A stretch of DNA of 64,000 bases from Halorientalis sp. IM1011 (GTDB lineage Archaea; Halobacteriota; Halobacteria; Halobacteriales; Haloarculaceae). The stretch is from contig NZ_CP019067.1 of NCBI RefSeq assembly GCF_001989615.1, positions 930,001 through 994,000 on the forward strand, given 5' to 3'. The notes under the pieces are model-generated. The model worked only from the letters and a program-made list of their open reading frames with translations, was not told the origin of the DNA and made no database searches. This document shows positions 37,910-61,008 of this stretch, piece after piece. Numbering within the stretch: position 1 is the first letter of the stretch; each line of letters opens with the position of its first letter. Both the position numbers and the translations under genes were made by a program.

Positions 37910-39304
37910 ATGACGAATAGACAATCGAAAGAGGATGTCTGGGAGGAGTGGGTGCGGAGGACAATTCTCGCAGATATCCAGTCGGCTGCAACCCCGGACC
38001 CGGTACCAATGGTCGACGACAGCGGCTCGGAATTGTCGATGGCCGACGAGTACGATACGTACCGTCTGGGTCGAGGGAGTGGTGACTATCTGTACATGTT
38101 GTATCTCCTTGAGGAATCCGCAGACGGACCCCAAGATGTGATCCCGGTGTACATCGGTGAAACGAGCAACGTCGCGAGTCGACTGATGAACCACTTCAGA
38201 AAGCTCCGGGACGCCCTCCCCATTTCGGAGTGGGAAGACGATGGGTCATGGGGCAGTTACGGGAAGTATGATCACATTGCGACCGTCTACGAACGATCGG
38301 CTTCACAGCTATACGCATGGGTGGTCAACGTTGACGACCTGGAGGTAGGTCCGTACGGGTACCCGACGTACCGACACGAACTCGAGGGGAAGATGGTCGG
38401 TCTCGTTCACTCGCTCCCACGGTTCGATCGCGTCTTCGCCAATCGCGACTTCGTTCCGAACCGCGTTCCTCACGAGATGGGCCAAGTGGGGCCCGAATGG
38501 GTCGACGACGAAAACGAACCATCGAACGAAGAACCAGCACGTCTCGCTGAACTCCCCGATGAGAAGGTGACTGGGGAGAGTAAGACCGAACTGTGGTACG
38601 AGTGGGTCGAAAAAACCATCTGTCGAGACATCAACGATTCCGAAGAGACAGATCCGATACCGCTCTTCGAGACTGACGACGACCTCGTTGTCGAGACGAA
38701 GACTCTCGGCTCCTCGGCAGTGCTCAAGCGAAGCGACGCCATTGACGAACGGATCCGTCGAGAGGGCAAACGATGTGTGCACAGTGACGGTGTGAGATCT
38801 GGAGAGAGTGGATTACTCTATGTCATGTTTCAACTCAACTCCGAGAATCCCTCCCCAACGGATGTCGTCCCACGGTACATCGGCAAAGCAGAGGCATACG
38901 GAAAAAAGAACGAACTGAGTGCAAACTTCGAGGAGATAGCGAAAGACCGGAGCGGAACTCGGAGCTTCGCTCGGTGGGGCGACGGGAATTATTGGCACGT
39001 AGGTGAGCTGTCGGAGACAGTATTCGGCGAGACGTCGAAGAAACTCAGTTGGGCGAGCGAACTCTTCGAACAGGGGACGCGCCAGCTTGAACAGCAGACG
39101 TACCTGTGGATCCGCGCGTGGGACCCGGATACGTATCCAGGGCCGTACGGCTATCCAGCATACCTCGCAGAAGTCGAGCCGCTACTGGTCGGACTCGCAT
39201 ACGAGGCGTGGCCCGATTACCTACTCAATCACAACGAAGTCCCAGGTGACGCACCCGCGAACAGTCGCGAGTTTGAATTTCGCCCCGTCGAGGACTGTCA
39301 CTGA
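37910..39304 (+). CDS. Tandem GIY-YIG-like nuclease protein
   Basis: A 464-residue protein made of two related halves. Each starts with a (K/E)xxxWxEWV..TI..DI helix (residues 8-23 and 225-241) followed by a DP(V/I)P segment. Each then carries a GIY-YIG-like core: LYMLYLLEESADGPQDVIPV, YIGETSNVASRL (YIG 81-83, Arg91), and ELEGKMVGL (Glu157/159) in the first half. The second half has LLYVMFQLN, YIGKAEAYGKK (YIG 323-325, no clear Arg) and LAEVEPLLVGL. Each half also ends with PYGYPTYxxxLE-like text. So the first domain is probably catalytic and the second perhaps degenerate. The gene sits 440 bp upstream of the MORC-Dam-Dpt operon, on the same strand. Confidence 0.65.
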   Translation: MTNRQSKEDVWEEWVRRTILADIQSAATPDPVPMVDDSGSELSMADEYDTYRLGRGSGDYLYMLYLLEESADGPQDVIPVYIGETSNVASRLMNHFRKLRDALPISEWEDDGSWGSYGKYDHIATVYERSASQLYAWVVNVDDLEVGPYGYPTYRHELEGKMVGLVHSLPRFDRVFANRDFVPNRVPHEMGQVGPEWVDDENEPSNEEPARLAELPDEKVTGESKTELWYEWVEKTICRDINDSEETDPIPLFETDDDLVVETKTLGSSAVLKRSDAIDERIRREGKRCVHSDGVRSGESGLLYVMFQLNSENPSPTDVVPRYIGKAEAYGKKNELSANFEEIAKDRSGTRSFARWGDGNYWHVGELSETVFGETSKKLSWASELFEQGTRQLEQQTYLWIRAWDPDTYPGPYGYPAYLAEVEPLLVGLAYEAWPDYLLNHNEVPGDAPANSREFEFRPVEDCH

Positions 39305-39746
39305 CGGCCTTCCCGAATCTTACGGCAAACACCTATCCGCTGATGGTCCTTTTTACCATGATAGCTTTCTTAAGTGCAGAGCTGTTTCCCCTCTACCATC
39401 TCTACAGGCGAACTTACTGAATGGAGGCTCTTTATTCAGAAGTTCAGTTTAGAAAAATTGGGGTTTCATGGAGGCAGTTTATCGCTCCTAGATAAGCAGC
39501 TTCTACTTGTTGTTGGTGCGCCCGCCATGCGCGCCACCGTACACCTGATGGTTATGATTGATGTCGACAAGAAGCCAACTAGGATTCATCGAAACATTTC
39601 TGCTAATTAGTGTCTTTCGACAGAACCGGATTTTTTATTTCAATAGAGGTCGTTGATATTTAATAAATTATTGACATAAGGACTGAGTCGGCCTCACCAC
39701 CTTGCTACCCGGAACTTTTAAACTAGTGTCGATCCCGATAAACACT
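39305..39746. other. Intergenic region upstream of the MORC-Dam-Dpt operon
   Basis: About 440 bp, AT-rich in its second half. I see no supportable coding sequence. A strong TATA-like element (AACTTTTAAACTAG) lies at about 39713-39726, 21-34 bp before the ATG at 39747, consistent with a leaderless operon promoter. Confidence 0.5.
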
Positions 39747-41609
39747 ATGTCCCAGTTCTACCAGGATGCTACCCCTGACCATGCTCAACTCCTCCCCACA
39801 AAGGATACTCTCACTGCGCTCAAGTCTGATGTCACGCTTGAATCGGCCATCCTAGAATTGTGTGATAATTCACTTGATGCATGGAAACGCTCCAGCAATC
39901 GAACGACATCTACACAAATCGAAATTGAAGTCAATGAGGGCAGAGATCAAACGGAACTGGTCATTCGAGACACCGCGGGTGGCATTCCTCGAGAAGATGC
40001 CGCAATGCTCTTTGGACTCGGCAAAACTGCAAAGAACGAGGTCCCTGGTGCAATTGGTACGTTCGGTGTGGGGGCAAAAAAGAGTTTAGTGAACTTGGGC
40101 CTCCCATTTCATATTGTCTCACGACACGAGTCCGCAGATATCGGTTGGACCTACCGTATTACCGAAGAGTGGTTTGAGGATGATGAGGATTGGACGGTGC
40201 CGGTCCATGATGCAGAGGACATTCCACCGGGAACAACTGAGATCCACATTGAGGATCTCAACTACAACTGGAGCGAAGAAACTGCTGAAGGACTCCGCGA
40301 CCGTCTGGGCAGGGCTTATAACCTCTTTCTGAGCGAAGAGATGCAAAAAATCCGAGGTACAGACTATGAGCTGAATATTACTGTCGATGGCCAGTCGGTC
40401 GAACCAGAGGGCATGCCTGACTGGTCCTATCCTCCATTCGATGGACTTCATGCTCGCCGATATGAGAACATCGAATTGGATATCGAAGAGTTCGATGAGG
40501 TTGTCCACCTACATATTACGGTTGGACTATTGACGAAGAAAGACAACCAGAAGGCCGGCACGGATATCTATTGTCAGGAGCGAAAAGTTGCGGGCCGACT
40601 TCGGGATGATCAGGGCGGGTTTGGGACTGGCAAAGATCGACTTGGCAATTTCAACCCTCGCCACCAACGTCTTAAGGTGATCGTTGAATTAGAAACTGAG
40701 GGCGACGGCCAAGCACTGCCATGGGACACACAGAAGTCCTCAATCGACAGGCACAATCCGCTAATGCGCGGGACCGATCATTGTCGCGGAGTCTACAACT
40801 GGCTCCGGAGAACGGTCCAGGCATACTTCGATATGGATGCAGATCGAGTTCCACGTGCCTTCTTGGAGCCATATGGCGCAGATCATCCCGCGGCAGCAAA
40901 CGGGGGAAAGCCAGAAGTCCACGACTATTCTGGCCGGTCGCATGTGACAAATGAACACCGTCCAGATACGGACATACCGAAAGTCAAATTGGTGACGCAA
41001 AAGGCGCAGTCAGATGCTACTTTGCTGATCTCCCGTGAGAATGCTATTGACAGCGGCCTGGTCGATGCATACAATATTCAGCTCGAACATGAGAGTGACC
41101 GAAACCGCGAGAACCTGACTCAGGTTACCTCGGAGCCACCTGAAGAGGCAATCAAACACCCACACGAAATAGCGAATCAAATTGGTGAACTGGCAAACCG
41201 CCACTATGACTATGGGGTCTATCACCCTGATGAGTTGGAAGACTGGGAGGCTGCTCGCTACAATTCATTCATGGAGCGACACGGTAAACAGGATCTGAGA
41301 ATCGTTGATGAACTTTCCGAAGATCTCCCGGCCTCTCGGGCTGAATTGTCTGTAGCAGACAGGAGTCAGGCCGCGACTGAACATGGCGCTGCCGTCTATA
41401 CGGCTAAAGAACTTGAGGACGACTCAAAAACAAGTGAGGACGCCGAGATTTTCTTGGTATTAGGTGGCGATGGCGAGGATGAACGGGGGTCTAAAGTAGT
41501 GGACACTACGCGTCGCGAGCTAATTAGTCAACTTGATATCGACCATTCAGCATCTGATGAAGTCCTCTGGGAAGAATTGAAACAACGGCTCAATGATACG
41601 CTGAACTGA
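39747..41609 (+). CDS. MORC-like GHKL-type ATPase
   Basis: A 620-residue protein with a GHKL ATPase head: the N-box ELCDNSLDAWKR (residues 37-48), the G1 motif IRDTAGGIPRED (73-84), and the lid/G2 motif IGTFGVGAKKSLVNLG (103-118). The Bergerat-fold sequence order fits MutL/MORC/Hsp90-like ATPases. Past residue 200 there are strand-rich parts (VHLHITVGLLTKKDNQKAG and IYCQERKVAGR) that resemble the S5-type transducer domain. MORC-like ATPases have been described in prokaryotic restriction-modification loci. A separate DNA methyltransferase follows 45 bp downstream. The start is ATG 39747 (MSQFYQDATP). Confidence 0.8.
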   Translation: MSQFYQDATPDHAQLLPTKDTLTALKSDVTLESAILELCDNSLDAWKRSSNRTTSTQIEIEVNEGRDQTELVIRDTAGGIPREDAAMLFGLGKTAKNEVPGAIGTFGVGAKKSLVNLGLPFHIVSRHESADIGWTYRITEEWFEDDEDWTVPVHDAEDIPPGTTEIHIEDLNYNWSEETAEGLRDRLGRAYNLFLSEEMQKIRGTDYELNITVDGQSVEPEGMPDWSYPPFDGLHARRYENIELDIEEFDEVVHLHITVGLLTKKDNQKAGTDIYCQERKVAGRLRDDQGGFGTGKDRLGNFNPRHQRLKVIVELETEGDGQALPWDTQKSSIDRHNPLMRGTDHCRGVYNWLRRTVQAYFDMDADRVPRAFLEPYGADHPAAANGGKPEVHDYSGRSHVTNEHRPDTDIPKVKLVTQKAQSDATLLISRENAIDSGLVDAYNIQLEHESDRNRENLTQVTSEPPEEAIKHPHEIANQIGELANRHYDYGVYHPDELEDWEAARYNSFMERHGKQDLRIVDELSEDLPASRAELSVADRSQAATEHGAAVYTAKELEDDSKTSEDAEIFLVLGGDGEDERGSKVVDTTRRELISQLDIDHSASDEVLWEELKQRLNDTLN

Positions 41610-41654
41610 AGACCGGACGACTTTATAGATACCGTCTTCATTTGAATATCACGA

Positions 41655-42563
41655 ATGGCAGACCCGATCTTGCGTTGGGCTGGCGGGAAACGCCAGATTA
41701 TCGACGACATAGTCACTAGGCTCCCACCCTCAAGAGACTATAATGACTATTACGAGCCGTTCTTTGGTGGTGGTGCTGTCTTCTTTGAACTGAAGCCGAG
41801 CAACGCGTTCATTAACGACATCAATGAGACGCTGATGGACTTCTATGAGCTGTTCAAAAATAATCTAGACTATATAATTAGAGAAAATAAGAAGCTGGAC
41901 GATGCCCTCAATCGCTATAGCACACTTGACGCAAAGAAAGAATTCTATTATACCCGTAGAAGAGAGTTCAACGAGTTGCAGAACGGATGTTGTGAGGATG
42001 AACTGCGGGAGGCAGTTCTCTTTCTCTTCTTGAATCGGACGTGTTTCAATGGTCTCTACCGCACCAACGAGAAGGGTGACTTCAATGTCCCAATGAAAAA
42101 GAAGGTTATCCTGACCGAATCAATCGAAGAAAAGCTTAAAGAAGGGCACAAGGTTTTACAAAATGCGGAGATAACATCACAAGACTTCGAATATATCGAG
42201 GAAGAAGTCGAAGAAGGGGACCTAATTTTCCTGGATCCACCATACATAAGCAATTCTGACGCACGCTACTTTAACCAGTACAGCACCGGTGGATTTGGGA
42301 GAGATCGACAAATTGATGTCCGAGATCTCGCTCTAAAACTTCATCATCGGGGTGCGTATGTGATGATTACGAACTCTGATGAAGCCGAAGATCTGTACCG
42401 CAGCGATGGCGAGTTCATGGAAAACTTCAGAATGATGGAACTCGAAGCTGCTCGGTCAATCAACAGCGACTCGTCTCAGCGCTCGCAAATTGGAGCTACT
42501 GATATTATTGTCACGAATTCGCCACAATTCTGGGAACAAAGAGAATTTGATGCTTACAGATAA
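41655..42563 (+). CDS. Dam/D12-class DNA N6-adenine methyltransferase
   Basis: A 302-residue methyltransferase with the D12 order of motifs: RWAGGKRQIIDDIV (residues 7-20), EPFFGGGAVFFEL (34-46, SAM site), and DPPY at 194-197, in LIFLDPPYISNSDARYF. It transfers a methyl group from SAM to the N6 of adenine in a specific DNA sequence; the sequence is unknown. Genes of this kind usually protect host DNA next to a restriction partner. Here it lies between the MORC-like ATPase and the DptF-like gene, all in the same direction. The start codon at 41655 is preceded by AT-rich sequence. Confidence 0.9.
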   Translation: MADPILRWAGGKRQIIDDIVTRLPPSRDYNDYYEPFFGGGAVFFELKPSNAFINDINETLMDFYELFKNNLDYIIRENKKLDDALNRYSTLDAKKEFYYTRRREFNELQNGCCEDELREAVLFLFLNRTCFNGLYRTNEKGDFNVPMKKKVILTESIEEKLKEGHKVLQNAEITSQDFEYIEEEVEEGDLIFLDPPYISNSDARYFNQYSTGGFGRDRQIDVRDLALKLHHRGAYVMITNSDEAEDLYRSDGEFMENFRMMELEAARSINSDSSQRSQIGATDIIVTNSPQFWEQREFDAYR

Positions 42564-42724
42564 TCAAAGCAAAATTCATTCTATGTAGTAATATATTGGA
42601 TACTTAGCATCCAGCACCCGTAGTCTGAACCAGAATCAAATTCGAAGCTCGGTTGCGTTGTGGGGTGCCTGCTATGGCAAAGGTTTATTTTATGCTACGC
42701 AACATATCAAGTCAACCGACGCCA

Positions 42725-44446
42725 ATGTCACTAACGAAATCAAGTGATTCTCTTTATGACTTATTGTATGCCTGTCAACGGGGCCAGCGAGTGGCAATCG
42801 TTGGCGGCCATACTGACGAAGATACCCTCCGTGAGGGGTTGTACGTGGAACAAGATCAGGATGAAAACATTGCTGATTTTTTTGATAATGAGTACGAGAA
42901 CGATGGGCGACTGCTGATACTAACCGGGAGTGCTGGTGACGGCAAGAGTGCCTTGCTAGCCCGTGGCTATGAGAAGGCTAAAGGAAACATTCCAGAAGAG
43001 CGCGTTAAGATGGACGCGACAGAGGCACGACGACGGGACGAGAATTATTCTGACAGACTCACCTCTTTTTTTGACACAATCGAATCTGACATTCAGTCCG
43101 AGTCCGGGCCAAGAAGTGCGATTGCTATCAACTACGGTCTTGCCATCGACTATTTCCAGCGGAAAGGGATGGCAGACACATTTGATGAGATCTGGGGTGC
43201 AATAGATGAATCACAGAATGAACTTTTCTACGAGTCGACCGAGCACAATATTTCCGTACTCAATTTGAGCCATCGCGAAACATACGAGACTGCCCCTGAG
43301 TCGTTGGGTGAGGGGTTAGTTTACGACCTGATTGATCGGTTTGATCCAATGAACGAAAATAGCCCGTTCACAGAGGCTTATGAACGAGAAAAGTCAGAGT
43401 GTCCTGCCGGCGATGACTGCCCACTTCAATACAACATCCGGCAACTCTCGACCACATCAGTCAAAAGGCAACTCGCACGGTTGTTTGCAGGCTGGAGTGT
43501 GGTCACAGGTTCGTATCTGAATCCACGGACCATCATTGACAATATCGCCTCGCTCCTCCTCCCAAAATCCCAGCCTCACGATCGGGATCATGAGGTCTGT
43601 CCTATCGGAGCTGCATTAGAGAATGGGACCACAACTGCTCACCCAGAGGACCTCATATGGAATGCGACATTCGATACACTGGGGACAAACAATCGGAATG
43701 AAGCCAGTAAGATTGATCCCGCAAGTCACACAACATTTGCCATTGATCAACAAGCGTTGGAGTGGGCAACTGGAGCTAACGGGACCGAAGAGGCACTACC
43801 CTCGCTTCCAGCCGTTGAGTTTGACGAGTCAGTCGAACGCGTTCGTACAGTGTTGCGAAAGCAATACCTGAACATGGGTGACGGGAAGACTATCCTTGAC
43901 AAGCCAACATTTCAAGAGTTTGCTGCCGCACTGACGTACTTCAATAACGGTAGGCCGCAAGAACATGTAAGCCGGACACAGGAATTACTCAGTACTGTTC
44001 AGAAGGCTCTAGGTGGCTGGACCGGCCGGCAGAGAGGCGATGGCCTGGTTGAGTTCATTGACGCAAAGCGGTCCGCATCATATCGATATCTCTCGGACTG
44101 GGAACAGCCCGAGTTTGATGCCGATAAGTGCGCTGAGGAGACCGAATCGCTAGCCGTTCCTGGACGTCTCAAACTAATGGCTGAGCCGTCGAGCAGCGAA
44201 GAGCCACTCATTCCGATCCCGATCTCATTCAATATCTATCAGCTGCTGACACAGGTGAGTGAAGGGTATACCCCCAATGCAACCGACCTTAATCAGTCGC
44301 ATGCTATCAGGGTGCTCCACTCACGCTTGGAAGACTTCACGAACAAACGAGAAAAGGTGGTCGTAGAGGGACGGTCAAATGAAACAAAAGTGACTATCGA
44401 GGACGACAATCTTGCGCTGCGAATATCTCGGGAGGGTAGCAAATGA
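42725..44446 (+). CDS. DptF-like P-loop ATPase
   Basis: About 573 residues. Walker A is ILTGSAGDGKSALLA (GSAGDGKS at 68-75). A cysteine pair in CPAGDDCPLQYN at about 234-240 and the C-terminal FNIYQLLTQVSEGYTPNATD match features of the DNA phosphorothioation-dependent restriction protein DptF as I know the family. DptF works with DptG and DptH. The start is chosen at ATG 42725, after a T/A-rich stretch; ATG 42674 and 42692 are alternatives. The gene overlaps the next by 4 bp (ATGA), so translation is coupled. The assignment rests on motifs and gene order, not a search. Confidence 0.65.
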   Translation: MSLTKSSDSLYDLLYACQRGQRVAIVGGHTDEDTLREGLYVEQDQDENIADFFDNEYENDGRLLILTGSAGDGKSALLARGYEKAKGNIPEERVKMDATEARRRDENYSDRLTSFFDTIESDIQSESGPRSAIAINYGLAIDYFQRKGMADTFDEIWGAIDESQNELFYESTEHNISVLNLSHRETYETAPESLGEGLVYDLIDRFDPMNENSPFTEAYEREKSECPAGDDCPLQYNIRQLSTTSVKRQLARLFAGWSVVTGSYLNPRTIIDNIASLLLPKSQPHDRDHEVCPIGAALENGTTTAHPEDLIWNATFDTLGTNNRNEASKIDPASHTTFAIDQQALEWATGANGTEEALPSLPAVEFDESVERVRTVLRKQYLNMGDGKTILDKPTFQEFAAALTYFNNGRPQEHVSRTQELLSTVQKALGGWTGRQRGDGLVEFIDAKRSASYRYLSDWEQPEFDADKCAEETESLAVPGRLKLMAEPSSSEEPLIPIPISFNIYQLLTQVSEGYTPNATDLNQSHAIRVLHSRLEDFTNKREKVVVEGRSNETKVTIEDDNLALRISREGSK

Positions 44447-45897
44447 CATATAGTGGATTTGGATTCGTTCCAGAATTCGATTCTGCACCTGGCCGAACAA
44501 ATCAGCGCGCGTACTTCCCGGTATCAATATCCGCGACAGTCCGAGAAGCAACATTCTCCGAGACACTATCCGGAATCTTAGATGCCGCTCCCAGCCACGA
44601 AATTGCTGATTTGGAGAAGTCATTCAAAGACCTGCCAGCACTGGACGGCGATGACGAGACAGCCGAAGAGTTGTGGAATGCTTTCACCTCTGGATATGGT
44701 GTCTCAGCTAAAGGATTTGGTCGAAAAAACGATGAAGCGGACTACCTTGTGCCATTCAATCACGCTGTAGCGTCAGCAATTGAGATCGACCAACGTCGCT
44801 GGTCTCGCCTCTATTGGCTACTGATGACTGATCCAGGGGATGGTGTCGTTGAGGATCTCCACTCAGAATTCGTTGAGGGTCTCTTCGATATGGATATATC
44901 AAACCTTCTAGAGGAAATTGTTATTAGCGGGATCGAGAATCTAGAGGGTGTTGAATTGGCGTCAGATGCTACTGAAATTCTCTCCAACCAGACGCCGATT
45001 GAGATTGATCCGCTCGTACCGGGGTGTGCGGAAGCATTTCGCGAGGATCTCAAGGCTTGGCTCAATGTCCGAGAATCTGAATCTGCCTCCCGGTGGATGC
45101 TTGGACTGCGCGATATCCTCAACTACCACTATATGATGTATGTCATTCAAACCGCCTACACTCTCCAAGAGGAATACGAGACGATCAAAGATGGGCCACC
45201 GTATGAATACTCATTTGACATCATCCCAGTGCCGTTTGGGTTAGCGAGTGAAACTGCATCCGAATCCAGAGAATTCGTGGATGCCTGGAAAGGTGATGGT
45301 CTATCGAGGGCCCTGTACGACTCCTGGGGGCGGCTTGCGGTACTAAATCACGTAGTGAGCGTTGCGATGGACTCCGGAAATCAGATTGACGCAAAACCAT
45401 ACACACTCTCGGAAGCACTTGAAGCCTTCCCAGATGAACTCCAACAGGACGTCATCGATCGGTTACTCGATGAATTCCCTGATGATCAACGACCTGACGT
45501 CGACTCGGATCTGGGAGACGTAGCGATCAGGTTCACACACTCAGTTCGCCGATACTACGAAAACATGGGTAAGACACCGTCATCACAAACTGCCTATTCG
45601 GCAGGCGAGAACTCGGTTCGCGATCTTGGAACAGGTGCAGAACGACAATTTATAGAGCGACGTCGGGGTGTCGGAACGATTCTCCGACTGGACAGAGGCA
45701 GTCTTCGGCTGTTTGCTCGGCTCTTTGACGCTCGAAAGCAACGGGGTCATATAGACGAGTTCTGGGAGTATATGCGAGGGCGAGGAATTAGATTTGACCG
45801 CCGGTCAAAAGAAGAGGTAATCTCACAATTAGAGGCAATGGGACTGCTGCAGAAGCAAAGCGACAGTGGGGAGGCAATGTATGTCGAGACCCTTTGA
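44443..45897 (+). CDS. DptG-like protein
   Basis: A 484-residue largely helical protein lacking a nucleotide-binding motif. Near its end it reads GIRFDRRSKEEVISQLEAMG, followed by the tail SDSGEAMYVETL. That ending closely matches the C-terminal signature of DptG (RKSxxxxxxxFE..N..E.KSDSGxAxYV), and the position between a DptF-like and a DptH-like gene fits dptFGH order. It overlaps both neighbours by 4 and 17 bp. A supporting search is needed, but the tail and synteny together are good evidence. Confidence 0.65.
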   Translation: MTYSGFGFVPEFDSAPGRTNQRAYFPVSISATVREATFSETLSGILDAAPSHEIADLEKSFKDLPALDGDDETAEELWNAFTSGYGVSAKGFGRKNDEADYLVPFNHAVASAIEIDQRRWSRLYWLLMTDPGDGVVEDLHSEFVEGLFDMDISNLLEEIVISGIENLEGVELASDATEILSNQTPIEIDPLVPGCAEAFREDLKAWLNVRESESASRWMLGLRDILNYHYMMYVIQTAYTLQEEYETIKDGPPYEYSFDIIPVPFGLASETASESREFVDAWKGDGLSRALYDSWGRLAVLNHVVSVAMDSGNQIDAKPYTLSEALEAFPDELQQDVIDRLLDEFPDDQRPDVDSDLGDVAIRFTHSVRRYYENMGKTPSSQTAYSAGENSVRDLGTGAERQFIERRRGVGTILRLDRGSLRLFARLFDARKQRGHIDEFWEYMRGRGIRFDRRSKEEVISQLEAMGLLQKQSDSGEAMYVETL

Positions 45898-48800
45898 GCA
45901 GAACGTCGCTCGATGGTTCTATGAACAGATGCCGGAACTGGATCCCCAGTCGGGAGACCGGTATGCAGGGAAGCTCCCAGACCCGAAAACGGCGGAAAAA
46001 ATCACCGAGTCTATTCTTGAAAACTCCGAGGGGATGGTTAGATTTCAGACTGTAGAGTACGAGGGTGAACAACAGGATGTTCCGGTTATTGATGTCGATG
46101 GTACGTCAGTAATCGTCGTTTCTGTGCGGAGAGAGGGCGATGCTGTGAGTCGTGAGTTTGAGGTATCCCGATCGTATGCCACAACGTTACGGAACATTAT
46201 CGCCGAGGGAGAAGATGACCTCGCCGATAATGCTCTCGTCATGATTTATGAGTCCGGTGTGGCCATTGAAACGCTTGAGACCACCCACCTTCTCTTTGCA
46301 CACAACGAACAGCTCCCCCTAACCGACTTCCAAGAACGGATACTTGGAAGCAAAGAAAAGCTGTCTGACCCCGGGCAGGCGCTTATCGAGATCGTTGAAT
46401 CGCGGCTTGAACTTCCAGATGACCCATTAGACAACCTGGATCCGCTCCGCACGTACTGTGGCATCTATGATGCCTGTATGCGTTCTGATGGGGATGCAAT
46501 GCCCAGTCTCATTCCGAAGATCGGAACATATCTGACAGAAACTGCCTTTGATGAAGAATGGTTTGACAAGACAAACAGCAAGTCTGAACTCAAAAGCCAG
46601 GCTGAACAGATTTTGGACCGTAATCAAGAGCATGCAGAGCGGATTGCGGACGCCAAGAGTGTCACAAAGGATGAGGAAACAGAACTGAAAGCCTACTACA
46701 CAGAGGACTTTATCGAAATAGTAGTCAGCAGGTCAAACTGGCGAACAATAACTCGGTCTGACGCAGCTGACGGAGAGGTCAGTACTACGGGTGGTGGTAG
46801 TTCTACGGGGGCAAGCACTGGAAAAAGTGGTCAAACCACGAGTAGCTCAGGTACGTCTGAGACTGGAACAGGTCGAGATCCGGAATTCGAGGATATAACC
46901 GTCGAACAAGACTTGGTTCGAATCTACGGAGCTGGCAGTCAGGCTGAGGGTGACCGGAATGTCATCATTGGGATGGACACTGGAACCCTCTCAGCGACGA
47001 TTGAGTATGACATCGATATCTCAGGAGAGCCAGTGAAGCTGACTGATGGAGCCGGCAATGAGCGCGATGATTGGGAGCAACAAAACAATGAGCTAAAAGT
47101 CTCATTGTCGGGACTCGATACGGATGCGCCACAGTTCTACCGCCTGGAAGTATATATCGGACACAAGACGAAGGGCGGAACACCGCAGAATCAATTCAAT
47201 TTTGCACTCATCCCTGAGTCGCTGTTCCACACGCTGCCGACTGGTGACAAGACGTTCGGTGTTGATGTTGATGAGGAGTCTCTGACAGCATTTGACGAGG
47301 AATTGATCGAGCTTACGCCGCCGGAAGCGGATGAGAGTGACAACCCAGAAACGGTTGAAATTACTGAAGAAACTCATCATAAGGCGGATCTGCATGCTTT
47401 GCTCCGGCCCAAACCACTACCAGGCGGCAGACGGGTTCGGTGTAAGCTTACACTTCCATCGGGCACACCTGTACCGCTCAATATTGACTTCATTTCTGAG
47501 GTAGATGAGCCAACACAGGAAGAAGTCCAGTTCCCACTGTCCTTCGCCGCACTGATGTCACCGACAGACTGGGCTGGGGATGATTCCCTAGAAATCGATT
47601 CTGCTGTCGTCACCAATATTGACACAGGCGAATTCCACTCGCCGACCCGCGGCCGGATTGAAATCCCTGACCCTGATCGGAAACTTCTCGCTTTAGAACA
47701 AGGAATTGTGCAGAAGGGGACGATCGCCCCTCGTGAGACAGCGCAAGTCGATGTCGGGCTCGGAGTCGTTCCTGATGATGTCGAACTCGAGAATATCGCT
47801 CCAGATCTCATCAGTGCATATACGGCATTGCTCGAGCACTTCGATCAACGTGATACAATACCATCGACAGACATCTGGGATCAGGAAACGCAGGACCATG
47901 TTGCAGATGTCTTGGAGAACTATTCGAAGGCGATCCAGGCGATAGAGGCAGGAAGGACAACCCCACAATTCAATCCATATCGTCGGCTCGGCACGATTCA
48001 GTCGACGTCCGCGAATGTCGTCTGGTTGACCCCTTTTCATCCCCTGATGTTGGCATATGGGCTGCGGGTAGCAGGATGGCGCGATGAACTGTTGGAGGCT
48101 GGAATGACTGATGGATTTAGATTTAGCCGGTTCCGGTCGCTGTTCAACCCTGTTGGATTCTCACCGTTCAGGTGGAGCCAAAGCGACGGTGGGAATATCC
48201 TTTCGGGGCACACGATGGAAAACAACCACCTCTGGGCTTCTTATGCCCCAATCGCGGGTCCGGGTTCGGACACTCCGAACTATATTGCTGACGTAATCTC
48301 CGATAAATTGGAAGCATTCGCCAGAGCGTTCCCGCTCCTATTCAAACTGCATGAGGACCGAACGCTCAACATTAATCTGGTGAATATGGGGGACCTTGGG
48401 CCGGTAATTGAGGGCCTATATGACTTCTTCAAATACGTCAATGAACACCCAGAGCTGAATCTCCCGCAAGTCAATCTACAGATCTACGGCGGTCCAAATG
48501 AGGGCCGGACGCTCGAGCGGTTCTTTGCAACTGATAGTGGGGACTCGCCACTTCGAGAGCAGTTGGGCGGCTCCTCAGACACAGATGAGATCCTGGAAAA
48601 GCTAGACCGGCGTGTGAGCTATGTTCGAGCTGATTCTAAATTCAACGAAGACACACAGCGATCCGCGCATCTCACCCTTTTCCGCGGCATTCTGGAAGAA
48701 CAGCCGGGCGCCGTTGAAACTGCGAGCTTCCCTAGAGCAACACGGCTGAATGGACTTCTACCCCGAGACCAAATCCAAGTTGAGTCTGCAGGGAGTGAAA

Positions 48801-51634
48801 TAGTCTCTCGCTCAGGGGCTGCGTTCGATCCTAAAGAGGGCGGTATTCTTGGTGAGATCGGTGCCGCTATCAATACATTAGAAGCGAGCATGCGTGACAG
48901 TGAGTTCAACTACGGTCGGACACTCAGCAAAGTGGTTACAACTGGTGGGCGATCAAATCTGCCGAACATTTGGAACCAATCCCTTTGGGTCCTTCACGTC
49001 GAGCCGAAAGTGGATCTCAGCTTCTACATCAATTCTACTTCCCAGTCGTCGGACATTTCGGATGAGGCCTTGATGATCCACTACAGTGATCAATATGACG
49101 CTGCCTCCCCCGGATTCGATATCATCACGACAACGGACAAGCGTGATCCATATATTAAGACTCTTGAACGAGAGTTAGAGGCAACTCCGGGTCTGGATGA
49201 ACTCGACCCGGAATCCGTGCTTACGCGTTTGGTTGCTATCGACGGGGAGCTAGCCTTAGATCTCCAAAGCGCAGAAAACAACACCGTCATGGAACTACTC
49301 GGTTTGGTTGGGGGACTGGCAGTCAGCGGAGAGTTGCTTGCTCGGGAGTTGCCAGAGTACGAGTGGATCCCAATCAGTTTAGACGAATTTGCTCGCCACG
49401 ATCGCAAATATCGTGGTGGAAACGAGGGCCTGCTCCAGTACTTCGGTGAGGGAGCAGCATCGGATGACCTGTGCTTCGTGGGTGTCCCGAAAGACGCTGA
49501 GTCCGGAGATCTCAATCTCTATCTGTGGATTGTCGAGACAAAAGGCGGAACATCGGGTATCTCGAAAGGAGTCGAGCAGGTCAAAGGAGCAAAAGAGAAC
49601 CTCAAAGAGCTGTTTGACCCGGACAAGGACTATGCTGACACCGAGGTTCTCCGGAGTGAATTTGGCGATATCATCCTGCAGATCGCGCGTAGACTGTATC
49701 ATTACGGGGTAATCTCCGAGACGCGGCTACAGACAATCGAACAGCATACAGACCCTCTAGTTGACGGTGAATACTCTATCAACCTGTTAGAGGACAGCCA
49801 ACGGAGAATTGGAGAAGTTATTCGAATTCAACGAGACATTGCGCTGCCCGCTCTTGAGACTCAGGATGGTGTTCGTGTTCTCAAACTACCGGCGGATGTG
49901 TTATCACTTATTAATAGCGAAAATCTTAGTGAGAATTCGATCCACCCGGATCTGAAAGCTGAGAAAGTCTCATTCGAGACGCCGGCAAGTGCACAAGAGA
50001 CAGAGACAACTGAGGCCGAGACAGCGGCTGTGGAAGAGGCAGAGACAAGTGTGGCCGAGGCTGAGAATTCTGAACAGGCAGAAACTGCTGAGCCTTCGTC
50101 AACGATCGCTGAGGGTGCAGAACCGACTCAAAATACCTCTTCAGGCTCGGAAGAGACAGAGGAAGCAACGACTGAGTCAGCAAGCTCAACTGGCTCAGAC
50201 GCCCAAACTGAGCAATCCGAAAAACAACCGGAGCGAGTAGAGGATTCCGGGACAACAAGCGGACAGGAGTCTGAGACTGACACTGCTGCAGCTGAGAAAC
50301 AGAGCGAACAGCAAGAGGAAAAAGAGTCGACTGACAGCAGCGACACTGAAGAAGCATCAGCATCTATTCAGAGTCAGAACTCCGAAGATGATGAGGGAGA
50401 CTCTGACAGTAAAGTAGATGATGATACGTCAGAAGCTTCGGACACACATGCGGCAGACGCACGTGGCACAAGAGCCTACTCGTGGACATCGAGTGACAGA
50501 CAGCAATTGATCGAAACCTTGGACCCGAGCCCTGAACAAGAGCTATCCATAGACGTAACACGGCTCACGACCGATCTAAAGGAGCAATTCGAATCGTTAG
50601 GGGTCGATATCTACGAACCGAACCCTGCCGATGTGTCAGTCGGTCCGCGAAAAATCGGCGTGAATATTCGACCGAAGTCGGGACAGAAAGTCGACAGTAT
50701 AATCAATGTTCTGAACTCGGTGAGTGTGCATATCCAAGCATCTGGTTCTGTCACTGGTGTTGCTAATCCCGCGGAAGGAGCAATCCGCTTGGAAATCCCA
50801 CATGGGGAACCGCGAGATATCCACCTTCGTGAGGGACTGGAGGCATCGGCTGAGTCGTTCAATGAACCACTTCATATTCCACTTGGAGTGACCACAGAGA
50901 ACGAACACAAGACGATCGACCTACTTGAGGAACATCATGCACTGGTTGGTGGTGCTACAGGCTCTGGTAAGTCGAATTTCCTCGCATCTGTGATTTGCAG
51001 TCTCGCCGTCAACTACTCTCCAGACCTAGTCAAAATGAGTCTACTCGATCCCAAAGGGATTGACTTTGGTCGATTTGAGCCCCTACCGCAGGTAGATACC
51101 TATCTAGACACAGGCGAACAGTGTGTTGAGTACCTGGAAGGACTACTTGAATCTGAGCTGGAGGATCGACGTGACTTGCTACAGGAAATGGGCGCTTCAT
51201 CGGTGCAAGAATATAACCAACTTGCAGAATCCCGAGACATCGATCGGATACCATATCGTGTTATCATTATTGACGAATACGCTGATCTGATTATGGCCCT
51301 GTCGGATACTCAGCAGGAGTTCGAGGATGCAGTCGGGCGACTTGCACAGATCGGACGGGCACTGGGGTACTCTATTTTGCTCGCGACCCAACGGCCGGAT
51401 GCAAATATTGTGTCCGGCAATATCAAGACGAATTTCAACTGTCGAATTAGCTTTGAATTGCCTTCCAACACCGACTCTCGAGTGATCCTTGATCAACCGG
51501 GCGCAGAAGATCTGGAGGGGGCAGGAGACATGATTGCTTTGACATCAGCTGGTGATGAACACCATCTACAGTCATATTTACTTCGTCCCGAGGATGCTCT
51601 TACTATCAGGGCACACATCACCAGTGACGACTAG
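45881..51634 (+). CDS. DptH-like FtsK/HerA-type DNA translocase with nuclease-like domain
   Basis: A 1917-residue protein. A large N-terminal region without known motifs is followed by a PD-(D/E)XK-like site at about 1195-1221 (SDDLCFV and LYLWIVETKGGTSG, Glu1219 and Lys1221). Then comes a low-complexity linker rich in Glu, Thr, Ser and Ala (about residues 1367-1530). Last is an FtsK-type motor with Walker A GGATGSGKSN (1690-1699), Walker B VIIIDEYADL (1794-1803) and QIGRALGYSILLATQRPDAN. This order is as in DptH, the helicase-nuclease of Dnd-dependent restriction. It starts inside dptG-like, at ATG 45881. The long acidic linker would suit a halophilic protein. Confidence 0.72.
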   Translation: MSRPFEQNVARWFYEQMPELDPQSGDRYAGKLPDPKTAEKITESILENSEGMVRFQTVEYEGEQQDVPVIDVDGTSVIVVSVRREGDAVSREFEVSRSYATTLRNIIAEGEDDLADNALVMIYESGVAIETLETTHLLFAHNEQLPLTDFQERILGSKEKLSDPGQALIEIVESRLELPDDPLDNLDPLRTYCGIYDACMRSDGDAMPSLIPKIGTYLTETAFDEEWFDKTNSKSELKSQAEQILDRNQEHAERIADAKSVTKDEETELKAYYTEDFIEIVVSRSNWRTITRSDAADGEVSTTGGGSSTGASTGKSGQTTSSSGTSETGTGRDPEFEDITVEQDLVRIYGAGSQAEGDRNVIIGMDTGTLSATIEYDIDISGEPVKLTDGAGNERDDWEQQNNELKVSLSGLDTDAPQFYRLEVYIGHKTKGGTPQNQFNFALIPESLFHTLPTGDKTFGVDVDEESLTAFDEELIELTPPEADESDNPETVEITEETHHKADLHALLRPKPLPGGRRVRCKLTLPSGTPVPLNIDFISEVDEPTQEEVQFPLSFAALMSPTDWAGDDSLEIDSAVVTNIDTGEFHSPTRGRIEIPDPDRKLLALEQGIVQKGTIAPRETAQVDVGLGVVPDDVELENIAPDLISAYTALLEHFDQRDTIPSTDIWDQETQDHVADVLENYSKAIQAIEAGRTTPQFNPYRRLGTIQSTSANVVWLTPFHPLMLAYGLRVAGWRDELLEAGMTDGFRFSRFRSLFNPVGFSPFRWSQSDGGNILSGHTMENNHLWASYAPIAGPGSDTPNYIADVISDKLEAFARAFPLLFKLHEDRTLNINLVNMGDLGPVIEGLYDFFKYVNEHPELNLPQVNLQIYGGPNEGRTLERFFATDSGDSPLREQLGGSSDTDEILEKLDRRVSYVRADSKFNEDTQRSAHLTLFRGILEEQPGAVETASFPRATRLNGLLPRDQIQVESAGSEIVSRSGAAFDPKEGGILGEIGAAINTLEASMRDSEFNYGRTLSKVVTTGGRSNLPNIWNQSLWVLHVEPKVDLSFYINSTSQSSDISDEALMIHYSDQYDAASPGFDIITTTDKRDPYIKTLERELEATPGLDELDPESVLTRLVAIDGELALDLQSAENNTVMELLGLVGGLAVSGELLARELPEYEWIPISLDEFARHDRKYRGGNEGLLQYFGEGAASDDLCFVGVPKDAESGDLNLYLWIVETKGGTSGISKGVEQVKGAKENLKELFDPDKDYADTEVLRSEFGDIILQIARRLYHYGVISETRLQTIEQHTDPLVDGEYSINLLEDSQRRIGEVIRIQRDIALPALETQDGVRVLKLPADVLSLINSENLSENSIHPDLKAEKVSFETPASAQETETTEAETAAVEEAETSVAEAENSEQAETAEPSSTIAEGAEPTQNTSSGSEETEEATTESASSTGSDAQTEQSEKQPERVEDSGTTSGQESETDTAAAEKQSEQQEEKESTDSSDTEEASASIQSQNSEDDEGDSDSKVDDDTSEASDTHAADARGTRAYSWTSSDRQQLIETLDPSPEQELSIDVTRLTTDLKEQFESLGVDIYEPNPADVSVGPRKIGVNIRPKSGQKVDSIINVLNSVSVHIQASGSVTGVANPAEGAIRLEIPHGEPRDIHLREGLEASAESFNEPLHIPLGVTTENEHKTIDLLEEHHALVGGATGSGKSNFLASVICSLAVNYSPDLVKMSLLDPKGIDFGRFEPLPQVDTYLDTGEQCVEYLEGLLESELEDRRDLLQEMGASSVQEYNQLAESRDIDRIPYRVIIIDEYADLIMALSDTQQEFEDAVGRLAQIGRALGYSILLATQRPDANIVSGNIKTNFNCRISFELPSNTDSRVILDQPGAEDLEGAGDMIALTSAGDEHHLQSYLLRPEDALTIRAHITSDD

Positions 51635-51784: not shown

Positions 51785-52620
51785 AATGGGACGATCACCT
51801 ACGATGAGTTGATCGGTCTGCGCCAGCACGAAATCTACGCCGAGGATCACGGTCATTCCCAAGTCTATGACAACTGGCGGCTGGAGATCCTGCGGCGGTG
51901 TCTACCTGATAGCTACGACGAGGAACGCCGTCTTCTGTACATGGCGACGATTCGAGCGAAAAATCACGTCGTCTACGCCGGCCGGGACTCCCCCAACACG
52001 TTCCTCGAAGAACTCGACGTCACAATAGAGAGTACGAACCAGCATTATCAGAGACGTCTCGGCCTGCACATGAACAGACAACCCTCGGTGCCACTATTCC
52101 TACACCAGATGGTCCAGTCGGTGAGACTCCCCACACGCTGATGCAAGGCGATGTCTTCGAGGATGTCACTGAGGGCCGAGGGACGGACTTCGGGACACAG
52201 ATCCATGATTTCGCTGAAGCGTACGCACTGGGCGACTCGGCCGACGCTGGCAGGGAAGCTGACTATACGCACGTCCGGAATCTGATCGACTCGCTCGATG
52301 GCGAGCTACTGGTTGAGGAGGTGGCGTTTCTCCCGCTTACCGTCGATGACGAGCGCGTGACGATCTCCGGCGTCGTTGACCTCATCCACGTGCTGCCGGG
52401 GCGTATCGAGATCATCGATTACAAGACCGATCGTGGCCGTCACGCCCAGGCGGAGTACGGGAAGCAACTAAGTGTCTACTATCACGTGGCGTCTGCCTGG
52501 TATCCGGACCGAACCGTCACGACCAGTATCTTCTACACTGCTGAGGGCGAGCGCGTCGATATCGAGCCGGTTACGCATGAGGATCTAATGGACCTGGTCC
52601 GACCAGTAATAGAGGAATAA
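51785..52620 (+). pseudogene. Frameshifted 3' fragment of a UvrD/RecB-type helicase-nuclease
   Basis: The first part (frame at 51785) reads GTITYDELIGLRQHEIYAED and DEERRLLYMATIRAKNHVVY, the motif VI region of UvrD-family helicases (RRLLYVAxTRAK). A frame change near 52050-52090 follows, and 52141-52620 reads GRGTDFGTQIHDFAEAYALG and RVTISGVVDLIHVLPGRIEI with IDYKTDRGRH, a RecB-type PD-(D/E)XK nuclease with the DYKTD lysine. The N-terminal helicase domains are missing. So it is a 5'-truncated and frameshifted remnant. It lies between the Dpt-like operon and the SMC-like pair. Confidence 0.75.
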
Positions 52621-52701: not shown

Positions 52702-52986
52702 ATGAATTCACCAGTACCCAATTTTTCTATGTCAGAAGGTCAGGGAGAAGACCAGAGACTTGGAGGAGATGTATCAGATGATGAGCTAGATATAGACCTT
52801 GCAGCTCAAGAAAATGGGGACGTAGAAGATCAGATTGCTAGCGCATTCATATTCAAGGTAATGCAATCTGATGTTGATGTGGACATGGCCGATGTCATGA
52901 ATGGGCTTCTCCATAAGGATGATTTCGGTGGAGAAGATCTCATTGTTGAATGCATTGAGGAGGAAATGTTGGACGATGAAGATTAA
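52702..52986 (+). CDS. Small acidic protein linked to the SMC-like gene
   Basis: A 94-residue, very acidic protein (about a third Asp/Glu) with a helical core (QIASAFIFKVMQSDVDVDMA). No family is known. It overlaps the following SMC-like gene by 11 bp (52976-52986), so the two are translationally coupled. It is likely its partner, for example a DNA mimic or regulator, by inference. A TATA-like CAATATAG lies about 30 bp before the start; an internal ATG at 52729 is an alternative. Confidence 0.6.
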   Translation: MNSPVPNFSMSEGQGEDQRLGGDVSDDELDIDLAAQENGDVEDQIASAFIFKVMQSDVDVDMADVMNGLLHKDDFGGEDLIVECIEEEMLDDED

Positions 52987-55462
52987 TAGCCTCACTATAT
53001 CAAACTTCCGAGGTATCAATGGTGAGTTCGAACTAGAACCTAAAACAGAGAACGTTGTAATCGTTGGTCCGAACGGATCCGGAAAGAGCTCGGTGATCGC
53101 CGCGATTGATTTTCTTCTTACTGGTTCTATTAGGGAGTTATCGGGTGAAGGGTCTCAATCGTTGACTGAAACCCGTCACGGGCCCCACATCGATTCGGAT
53201 CCAACCGATGCCTGGGTTGAAGGCGAGTTTATGTTAAATGGAGACAGTCTAACTGTTCGCCGAAGTGTTTCAGATCGAACTAATCCATCCATCGGCAGGG
53301 ATGATGACGATGAGGAAGAATTTGGTGAGGATTTTGAATCAGTGACGCGTGCGGCGGAAAGAGGGCTACATTTGTTATCCCGGGATGAAATTCTCGATTT
53401 TATTACCGCTCAGGCTGGAAGTCGATCCGAAAGCATTCGATCCCTTCTCGACCTTCAAAATGTTCAATCTAGAAGGCTTGCCTTAGATAATGCAGCTGGC
53501 TATTTTGAGAATGAAGCTAACAGATTAGAACGTGAGGCAGATCGTCTCCGTGAGGACCTTTATACTGCTCTTGAATCAGAATCAGATAGTGATGATTCTG
53601 TTCTTCAACTTGTTAACGATCTCCGTGAGGACCTCGGTGGCAATGAACTCACAAATTTAGATGAGCAATTTGATTCGGATATCGATTCGCCCTCACGACG
53701 CGTCATTGCTTCCCCGCTTTTGCGATCAGATGGCCGACAGCGAATCGAGGAACTCCAAGAATGGTTCGATACCGATGTGGAGGATTTTCTCGAAGCAGAC
53801 GAAGCTTATCGTGAACAGTGGAATGAGATCGATATAGAGGGTGAGGCCCGCCGTGATCTGAAACGACAACGTCTCGTGGAACTAGGAAAGGAGGCCATCG
53901 ATGACGACGCCGAACGTTGTCCTCTATGTCTTAATGAGTGGGACCCGGAAGAGCTCCGTGAAAATCTTTCTGAACGTCTTGAGGAGGCAGAAGAACTACA
54001 AAAGAAACTTGATGAGTTAGAAGAACGTCGCGATGCGGCTCAACAATCATTGACTGATGTACGTGTTGTTGCCGAATCTCTACATGAGACCTTAACTGGA
54101 GTGGACGAATTCGATGGGGAACCACTGGAGGAATTCGTCGAATTGGTTCAGGATTGGGAAGATGCCTATAATCAAGACCTCCTTTCTAAGCCCCCTAAAG
54201 ACGAAATGACGAAGGACGATCGTGACGCATTGCTACGACCCGATGATCTTCAGTCGATGCTTGAAGAGTTAGACCAACATATTTCATCGGGACCTGAGTT
54301 AGATGAGCTGGAGTCAGCGTGGTCAAACCTTCAGGCGGCAAATCAGCGATATGACGAGATGCATTCTAACAGTCGAAACGCCGCTGAGTATCGACGAGTC
54401 GCTCAAGATGTCAGGACTACACACCAGAAATTCGTCGAGGCCCGTGATTCCGTTCTAAACCGAATCTACGACGAAATCGAAGATAAGTTTGAGAGATACT
54501 ATACGACTATTCATACCGATGAGACAGACTTTGGCGCTGGATTAGATCCTACTGAGACTGGACTTGAAATGGAGGTTGAATTCTACGATCGTGGCCAACA
54601 TCCGCCCCATGCCCTACATAGCGAGGGTCATCAAGATAGTATGGGGATCTGCCTTTACTTCGCTCTCTATGATTGGCTTCAAGAGCAGGAAGAAATATCG
54701 ATCATGATGCTTGACGACGTCGTCATGTCAATAGACTCTGAGCATCGGCGGCCTCTAGCCAGGCTAATGGCCTCAGAGATTGCAGAGGATCACCAACTGT
54801 TCATCACAACTCATGATGATCTCTGGCACCGCCACCTTCGTTCTTCTGGTGTAGTCAACTCCAATGGGGTAGTTCAATTCTCAGATTGGAACATCGAGGA
54901 TGGGCCGAAAATAATTGATCGGCCAGAAATGGAGTGGGAGACGATTGAGGAAGAGCTCAATGATGGGAACGTTTCAATTGCGGCCCATCAGACACGACGC
55001 ATGGCTGAGTGGTTCCTGCGTGAAGCATGCGATCGTTTGGATGGAAAAGTACCATTCAAAGCAAATAGTCAGTGGAATTTAGGTGACTTCCAGCAGGGTG
55101 TTATATCAAGATACAAGTCCTTGGTGAAGAGCGCGAAGGCTTCGGCGGATTCATGGAATCGGGATATGAGGGTAAGCCACTTTGAGGAGCTTGACAATAA
55201 GATGACTGAAATCAGTGAGCGTATTTCACATGATGGTGCTGCTCTTAACCCGAATGTCCACTGGAATGAAACGGAGTCTGAATTCGCTAATTGTACGCCA
55301 GGAGAATTGAGGCCCGCAATCAATGTCTATAGGGAACTATATGAGATGTTATGGTGCAATGAGTGTGATTCCTGTCTTCGTGTGGTCAAAGACGGACATA
55401 CAGATGATAGTGTTAAATGTAATTGCTCCTCAGTCAATTGGAATCTACGAATGAACGATTAA
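52976..55462 (+). CDS. SMC/Rad50-like ABC-type ATPase
   Basis: An 828-residue protein: Walker A VGPNGSGKSSVIAAIDF (GPNGSGKSS at 31-39), coiled-coil-rich middle with a zinc-hook-like CPLC (315-318), signature-like HSEGHQDSMG (548-557), and Walker B IMMLDDVVMSID (576-587) followed by the FITTHDDLWH switch. This is the RecF/SMC/Rad50 type as in many defence ATPases (Lamassu LmuB-like, DndD, AAA_23). Its last 200 residues are unusual, with CNECDSC and VKCNCSS near the end, perhaps a second zinc site. It is coupled to the small acidic gene. No nuclease subunit follows, so its action is not clear. Confidence 0.75.
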   Translation: MKINSLTISNFRGINGEFELEPKTENVVIVGPNGSGKSSVIAAIDFLLTGSIRELSGEGSQSLTETRHGPHIDSDPTDAWVEGEFMLNGDSLTVRRSVSDRTNPSIGRDDDDEEEFGEDFESVTRAAERGLHLLSRDEILDFITAQAGSRSESIRSLLDLQNVQSRRLALDNAAGYFENEANRLEREADRLREDLYTALESESDSDDSVLQLVNDLREDLGGNELTNLDEQFDSDIDSPSRRVIASPLLRSDGRQRIEELQEWFDTDVEDFLEADEAYREQWNEIDIEGEARRDLKRQRLVELGKEAIDDDAERCPLCLNEWDPEELRENLSERLEEAEELQKKLDELEERRDAAQQSLTDVRVVAESLHETLTGVDEFDGEPLEEFVELVQDWEDAYNQDLLSKPPKDEMTKDDRDALLRPDDLQSMLEELDQHISSGPELDELESAWSNLQAANQRYDEMHSNSRNAAEYRRVAQDVRTTHQKFVEARDSVLNRIYDEIEDKFERYYTTIHTDETDFGAGLDPTETGLEMEVEFYDRGQHPPHALHSEGHQDSMGICLYFALYDWLQEQEEISIMMLDDVVMSIDSEHRRPLARLMASEIAEDHQLFITTHDDLWHRHLRSSGVVNSNGVVQFSDWNIEDGPKIIDRPEMEWETIEEELNDGNVSIAAHQTRRMAEWFLREACDRLDGKVPFKANSQWNLGDFQQGVISRYKSLVKSAKASADSWNRDMRVSHFEELDNKMTEISERISHDGAALNPNVHWNETESEFANCTPGELRPAINVYRELYEMLWCNECDSCLRVVKDGHTDDSVKCNCSSVNWNLRMND

Positions 55463-60069: not shown

Positions 60070-61008
60070 ATGGCGACTAGTGACAACACGACATTCGACG
60101 ACCGCGAGACGCGTGACGAGCAGATGCGAGCGACCATCGACGAGTGGGTCGAAGACCTCACCGATCTCGTCGACGAAGCACAGGCCAGCGCGGAGTTCCA
60201 GGAGTGGCTGGATGTCAAGAGCCGCTTCCACGACTACTCGCATCGCAATACACTGCTCATCAAACAGCAATGTCCAGAGGCGACCAAGGTCGCGGGTTAC
60301 CGAACGTGGCAAGAGGAGTTCGACAGGCACGTCCAGGAGGGCGAGTCGGCGATCTGGATCTGGGCACCGATCATCACGACGCGGTGCCCGGAGTGTGAGA
60401 ACGCGCCAAGCTACCACGGAGAATCGGACTGTGAGTACGACGAGACACCACCGGAGGAGTGGGACCAGGGGCTGGTCGGGTTCAAGCCCGCACCAGTGTT
60501 CGACGTCTCCCAGACCGAGGGTGAGCCGCTTCCCGAACTCGATACTGAGACGTACGGCGATGGAAGCGAGCTAGTCGACGCACTACAGTCGGCTGCACTC
60601 ACTCTCGATGTGGAGGTCCAGATCGTGGCTGAGTCCGACTGGTCCCATCCGGGTGCCAAGGGTGTCTGTAGTCAGTCAGGAGGGGACCAGCTCCCGGTAG
60701 TGAAGGCAAAGAACAGAGCGAACGATGCGGATCTGGCGACGACACTGATCCACGAGTACGCCCACGCGTTGCTCCATTTCCAGGTGGCCGACGACAGCGA
60801 ACGGGCGAAACGCGAGGTCGAAGCCGAAGCGGTGGCGTACGTCGTCGGTCGGTACTTCGGACTCGATACGCGTAACGCGGCGTTCTACCTGGCGGCGTGG
60901 GCTGAGGACAATACTGAGACGATCACTGATCGCCTGCAGCGGATCAGTACGACGGCAACGACAGTTATCGACGCAGTCAACGACCAACTGGGGGACTACA
61001 CAACGTAG
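60070..61008 (+). CDS. ArdC-like antirestriction / zinc metallopeptidase protein
   Basis: A 312-residue protein. The N-terminal part is the ArdC-type ssDNA-binding domain (SRFHDYSHRNTLLIKQQCPE, VAGYRTWQEEF, and IWAPIITTRCPEC, with a Cys pair). The second half is an IrrE/ArdC-like zinc peptidase with the HExxH site LIHEYAHALLHF and the third ligand region EVEAEAVAYVVG. ArdC proteins protect plasmid DNA against restriction during conjugation. It sits within an island that itself carries restriction-like systems. A hairpin element precedes it. Confidence 0.85.
   Translation: MATSDNTTFDDRETRDEQMRATIDEWVEDLTDLVDEAQASAEFQEWLDVKSRFHDYSHRNTLLIKQQCPEATKVAGYRTWQEEFDRHVQEGESAIWIWAPIITTRCPECENAPSYHGESDCEYDETPPEEWDQGLVGFKPAPVFDVSQTEGEPLPELDTETYGDGSELVDALQSAALTLDVEVQIVAESDWSHPGAKGVCSQSGGDQLPVVKAKNRANDADLATTLIHEYAHALLHFQVADDSERAKREVEAEAVAYVVGRYFGLDTRNAAFYLAAWAEDNTETITDRLQRISTTATTVIDAVNDQLGDYTT

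Follow-up and report, generated by a model that had tools for sequence, protein, structure and literature searches.

DptFGH (DndFGH), the restriction module of Salmonella Cerro 87 and E. coli B7A, has been described elsewhere as a nickase and translocase (PMC11662687). In Salmonella, loss of the mark while FGH is present damages the cell (PMC12707154), which argues that an active FGH needs a mark or another brake. Rakesh, Aravind and Krishnan (2024) reported DndFGH without dnd genes in many archaea and argued that DndFGH is a standalone system (PMC10853773); the main text of that article mentions neither MORC nor a neighbouring active Dam gene. In SspABCD-SspFGH, as in the locus described here, an FGH-type restriction module is tied to a modification module other than Dnd, but the mark is still phosphorothioate (PMC8092258). 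A further system, PbeABCD or CxC-ABC-DndE (PMC6459918, PMC10853773), resembles this locus in being archaeal, in having its phosphorothioate at GATC in the haloarchaea studied and in having base methyltransferases as neighbours. Such methyltransferases stand beside PbeAC lacking dnd in 155 of 320 instances, and cytosine methylases beside CxC cores (PMC6459918, PMC10853773); for solitary PbeAC, Xiong et al. suggested methyltransferase coupling (PMC6459918). Finally, MORC-type ATPases have been known in restriction systems since 2008 (Iyer 2008, PMC2292703). Those MORC and paraMORC proteins share with ours the GHKL and S5 ATPase architecture in a restriction-modification context, but lie mainly with SF2 helicases and nucleases, whereas the MORC-like protein described here lies with Dam and DptFGH.

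We analysed a 64-kb window (C1:930001-994000) of a 3.78 Mb haloarchaeal genome that is 99.99% complete. Five genes lie on its plus strand at 39747-51634, and their lengths and positions, re-read from the sequence, agree with the initial annotation. A GHKL/MORC-like ATPase (620 aa; 39747-41609) is followed after 45 bp by a Dam-family N6-adenine DNA methyltransferase (302 aa; 41655-42563) and, beyond a spacer of 161 bp (42564-42724), by the P-loop protein DptF (DndF; 573 aa; 42725-44446), DptG (DndG; 484 aa; 44443-45897) and DptH (DndH; 1917 aa; 45881-51634). As previously described, the last three stand in the order F-G-H and overlap by 4 bp (DptF/DptG) and 17 bp (DptG/DptH). The block consists of two modules, MORC-Dam and FGH, which corrects the earlier view of a single operon; at another locus (L031) the spacer between the modules is about as long (164 bp). 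Immediately before the MORC start is a conserved block (39708-39746, plus strand) with a predicted promoter-like box, TTTAA[A/G]CTAGT. The left edges of the matches to two other genomes fall at 39708 (G063) and 39705 (G143), and the sequence further upstream is unrelated. Rfam and tRNA searches of the window gave no match.

Profile searches upheld the identities proposed for all three FGH proteins, and for DptG a fold match did so too. DptF scores 83 bits against TIGR03238 (cut-off 50) and 9e-36 against the PADLOC DndF profile. Its Walker A motif, strand-2 Asp, Walker-B Asn and lid Arg are invariant in 27 sequences, that of the window included; the P-loop and these three residues form the P-loop kinase-like signature given for DptF by Rakesh et al. 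(PMC10853773). A comparison of DptF with the PDB gave no informative match. DptG, a protein assigned to a winged-helix family (PMC10853773), scores 63 bits against TIGR03236 (cut-off 20), and the sole significant PDB match of its AlphaFold2 model (pLDDT 86, pTM 0.90) is the DndG structure 7exx (E 8e-10). DptH reaches 219 bits against TIGR03237, which is under the full-length cut-off of 621, and matches PADLOC DndH (7e-87) and SspH (2.6e-39); its core aligns with eight other DptH proteins. In the DptFGH family the N-terminal domains of DptH include an inactive Dam domain with a nested TRD, and for this part the comparison was one of sequence alignability. The putative PD-(D/E)xK nuclease motif of DptH (SDD...E-x-K; 49460-49543) is invariant in 9/9 aligned DptH proteins, with S1199-D1200-D1201, E1224, K1226 and Q1238 numbered on a 1922-aa reading. 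The C-terminus carries an FtsK-type DNA translocase domain (50864-51520; PF01580 1.8e-30; PDB FtsK 2ius 2e-34). The cassette therefore shares with the DptFGH of Salmonella and E. coli the gene order, the overlaps, the nucleotide-site signature of DptF, the DptG fold, and the nuclease and HerA/FtsK motor of DptH. The difference is that FGH as described there has no inbuilt modification module (PMC10853773), whereas the FGH of the cassette was co-transferred with MORC-Dam.

The Dam protein (TIGR00571 236 bits, cut-off 115) contains a D12 methyltransferase domain with an intact DPPY motif. Dam, DptF and DptH alike retain their catalytic residues. The GATC recognition hairpin is also preserved (N120, L122, R124 and P134 of EcoDam), and the cassette enzyme is predicted to recognise GATC. 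Since the nearest solved structures, DpnM (2.9e-42) and EcoDam (1.7e-28), are both GATC methyltransferases, the obvious candidate for a self mark would be 6mA in that sequence. Nuclease profiles found nothing between MORC and FGH, and by profile search and alignment the sole nuclease motif of the cassette is that of DptH; a type II restriction-modification system differs in having a cognate endonuclease, which the cassette lacks beside Dam.

The first protein of the cassette matches PF13589 (GHKL ATPase) at 6e-13 and retains the motifs ELCDN, RDxxGG, GTFGVGAKKS and LPWDTQKSSID, all invariant in an alignment of seven haloarchaeal homologues (51-88% identity); the GHKL motifs and the S5-domain lysine are in place. 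The MORC-specific S5 motif GhXhhpXXRhl fits in part, as in GTDIYCQERKV of the window G, I, Y, R and V agree and two hydrophobic positions do not. Because of the partial fit, 'MORC-like' is the safer name. An AlphaFold2 model of this protein, built from 3 sequences, was discarded (pLDDT 34). By sequence, the protein has no match in the PDB, and no relatives were found in viral contigs or in phage records. A different pair, consisting of a short MORC-like ATPase (440-448 aa) and a protein of ~315 aa, which in L076 is a Methyltransf_35 protein (PF20553), was seen at L076:13494-15763, L052:12515-14793 and L054:13476-15779; its immediate neighbours are Dnd phosphorothioation systems, of the FGH as well as the Pbe type.

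The cassette lies in a region (window about 30000-56000) whose GC content, about 0.50, is lower than that of the first 8 kb (about 0.65) or of the sequence past 56 kb (0.60). This region is probably an island of foreign DNA that extends beyond the cassette. Upstream of the cassette it contains two ORFs of 454 and 493 aa (30804-33633), a 555 aa protein with weak similarity to Hjc-like nucleases (33812-35479) and a weakly GIY-YIG-like protein of 464 aa (37910-39304). Downstream, a remnant of an AddA/UvrD-like helicase-nuclease (51809-52620; PDDEXK_1 1e-10) is weakly similar to a protein of 1223 aa whose gene is convergent with MORC-Dam in G143 (L032:10831-14502), and a RecF/SMC-like ATPase follows at 52901-55462 (LmuB 2.8e-29, mad3 1e-23). 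Elsewhere in the window are a TrwB/TraD-like coupling protein (14837-18508) and a weakly ArdC-like anti-restriction protein (60070-61005), which are probably traces of a conjugative element.

That the five genes form a unit is indicated by a single unbroken DNA match of 11.9 kb (85% identity) to a genome of another family, G063. The match covers window 39708-51622: it opens 39 bp ahead of the MORC start, ends 12 bp short of the DptH stop and has unrelated flanks. As this interfamily match spans exactly the five genes, the arrangement is more than chance, and the block is one mobile unit that has been transferred as such between archaeal families; ordinary methylation may then replace the sulfur self mark. 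In G143 the match is to MORC-Dam alone (39705-42538) and in Natronomonas gomsonensis to FGH alone, so two separable modules were joined.

Among 391 haloarchaeal genomes there are seven close homologues of the MORC protein, each with Dam beside it, and FGH or a remnant of it broken by IS elements adjoins four of the seven pairs, in two orientations. FGH is in line with MORC-Dam in the source genome (G000) and in G063, whereas on a plasmid of Natronorubrum aibiense (G292) it is divergent from a Dam-MORC-Dam arrangement; on pHTIA of Halorhabdus tiamatea (G078), remnants of DptF and of the DptH C-terminus, left by deletion and IS elements, are divergent from MORC-Dam. The overlap between genomes with FGH and genomes with MORC-Dam, counting three intact cases in the 391 genomes, has P = 3.5e-5, but the source genome and G063 represent one recent event, so independent associations are few. 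MORC-Dam occurs without FGH in G143, G199 and G329. It lies beside PbeA and PbeC genes in G329 and G078, and beside a PbeA-like gene in G199, where PbeC is on another contig; none of G329, G078 and G199 has DndC. Thus, MORC-Dam adjoins two restriction modules that were first described with phosphorothioation, FGH and Pbe. Several haloarchaea (L033, L034, L036, L050, L051) also have McrBC-type genes in the vicinity of MORC-Dam, of FGH or of longer MORC proteins.

To place FGH more widely, 85,000 genomes were scanned with the DptH core, which yielded 78 FGH loci, drawn from haloarchaea, Bacillota, Bacteroidota and one spirochaete; because the scan demanded the SDDL motif, this sample is not random. 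Within 10 kb, dndC or dndE is present at 54/78 loci and absent from 24/78. A base methyltransferase within the same distance was found at 0/54 loci with dnd and 6/24 without (Fisher P = 5e-4; 0.004 for loci with good flanks only), so that in this sample dnd genes and base methyltransferases exclude each other as neighbours of FGH. The six loci belong to three lineages and pair a C5 methyltransferase with a MutH/Sau3AI-family nuclease (four loci) or a Vsr nuclease (two). In the DptH tree, 4/6 group together as a single Bacillota clade spanning four genera, where the C5 gene is kept beside FGH but its placement varies, and the spirochaete and Halorubellus cases fall separately from it. A further 'C5' match (L073) was dropped as weak and distant. 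On a Priestia megaterium plasmid, Dam and AlwI accompany FGH. These Sau3AI-like (C5 and MutH) and AlwI systems resemble the cassette in that a base methyltransferase replaces dnd and GATC-type sites are expected, but they bring a nuclease of their own, which MORC-Dam does not. In Halorubellus salinus (G238; L072:7958-12106), a 1382 aa DptH without FtsK/HerA adjoins a MutH-like nuclease and two C5 methyltransferases. Another locus (L060, G385:C2) has an FGH-like set in which F and H are split over several frames, with a Dam gene elsewhere in the genome.

As families, MutH/Sau3AI enzymes, AlwI and Dam have GATC or GGATC as their target. Haloarchaeal phosphorothioate is placed at GpsATC (PMC6459918), and these loci hint that a GATC-type site is kept while the chemistry of the mark changes. 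However, phosphorothioate in the Salmonella DptFGH system is at GAAC/GTTC (PMC4507180), so this is not a rule.

The best explanation of the locus as a whole, and one that we would cautiously call probable, is a methylation-coupled DptFGH cassette: a single mobile, restriction-modification-like unit in which base methylation would replace phosphorothioation. This reading draws on the gene identities and intact catalytic motifs, the absence of dnd genes, the co-transfer of the block, the recurrence of MORC-Dam alongside FGH and the mutual exclusion of dnd and base methyltransferases. Dam would methylate host GATC, its predicted site, as the self mark. By analogy with what is known for other DndFGH complexes, we infer that DptFGH would scan DNA by means of DptG and the DNA-binding parts of DptH, move by its FtsK motor and, through the PD-(D/E)xK domain of DptH, nick or cut DNA without the mark. 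The MORC-like ATPase, which travels with Dam, is most likely a DNA clamp tied to it, closing on DNA in an ATP-dependent manner and either helping Dam to keep the mark or coupling the mark to FGH. This is the weakest step of the proposal because the structure model was unusable.

Points against the coupled cassette are FGH without Dam in relatives, MORC-Dam without FGH, the gap of 161 bp, the frequency of Dam in haloarchaea (95/391 genomes), the small number of independent associations and the argument of Rakesh et al. for a standalone DndFGH. For example, the close relatives Natronomonas gomsonensis (65% identity) and Haloarcula amylovorans have FGH with neither Dam nor any other base methyltransferase within 10 kb, and the genome of the former has no Dam match at all. 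Such cases suit the main rival, which we regard as possible but clearly the less probable account: two independent defence modules travel together in the island, DptFGH would stand alone and answer to signals that do not come from host marking, and MORC-Dam would be either a system apart or an orphan methyltransferase that has partners of its own. A standalone DndFGH has been proposed (PMC10853773), MORC-Dam also lies beside PbeA/PbeC and McrBC, each module is found without the other with 161 bp between them here, and the low-GC island has other defence-like genes; however, independence sits poorly with the transfer of exactly five genes together, with adjacency that recurs in two orientations and extends to a decayed copy, and with the finding that dnd and base methyltransferases exclude each other at FGH loci.

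It is quite unlikely that the methyl mark is itself the trigger, with MORC or FGH attacking a wrong methylation pattern in a type IV-like or abortive response and Dam setting the expected pattern. Winged-helix domains can read 6mA in GATC, as in DpnI (PMC11037411), DptG belongs to a winged-helix family (PMC10853773) and three genomes have McrBC genes close to MORC-Dam, but the cassette Dam would methylate host GATC, and G6mATC would then be a dangerous trigger.

The initial annotation had found no dnd gene in the 64-kb window, and this holds for the near-complete genome: the whole 3.78 Mb gave no DndC at E 0.01, no DndD/PbeC-class protein (the best ABC match, 5e-11, is at SMC/Rad50 level) and no DndE, although the control for the DndE search was also silent and that negative is therefore weak on its own. 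At default E, the PbeC profile was too broad (389/391 genomes, an SMC/Rad50 background), so the analysis was restricted to matches above about 650 bits. DndC is present in 18/391 haloarchaeal genomes and in none of the sampled DptF-positive ones. The earlier proposal that Dam occupies the place of the modification genes is supported. That FGH here depends on phosphorothioate from genes elsewhere or from a diverged pathway is most improbable, and we rejected it: DptFGH was defined with phosphorothioate systems and the genome encodes one PAPS-reductase-family protein, but this 354 aa protein has no DndC match and looks like a housekeeping enzyme, and DndC, DndD/PbeC-class and DndE matches are missing.

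With regard to other systems, PADLOC listed no Pbe match (PbeA helicase, PbeC ABC ATPase) among the five cassette proteins and no match to BREX or DISARM (PglZ/BrxX, Drm proteins). The full mad1-8 set of MADS is absent, the likeness being confined to a mad8-like FtsK domain and the mad3-like similarity of the neighbouring SMC-like gene. PbeABCD, previously named as the closest comparator, fails on homology, because FGH is unrelated to Pbe and the cassette has no PbeA, PbeC or PbeD; the comparison remains apt in that MORC-Dam lies beside PbeA/PbeC in other haloarchaea. FGH without dnd and MORC in restriction systems had both been published (PMC10853773, PMC2292703). A search of the open-access literature found no report of the five-gene form, of base methylation coupled to DndFGH or of MORC-Dam as a module.

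A broader proposition, which we advance tentatively and consider doubtful as yet, is that DptFGH is an engine not tied to one mark chemistry and repeatedly recruited to GATC-type modifications (sulfur; 6mA via MORC-Dam or Dam-AlwI; 5mC via C5 enzymes with a MutH- or Vsr-type nuclease), and that MORC-Dam is a portable self-marking module for FGH or Pbe, its MORC clamp linking mark to attack. There is dispute over how a DndFGH that lacks dnd distinguishes self from invader, and the cassette, its relatives and the C5/MutH loci offer a simple answer in which the mark is swapped and the engine kept. If this is true, self-marking and attack would be separately exchangeable, even between backbone and base chemistry, and the annotation of every FGH as 'phosphorothioation-dependent' would mislead. 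Furthermore, MORC ATPases would then have a defined setting in prokaryotes, adjacent to the mark.
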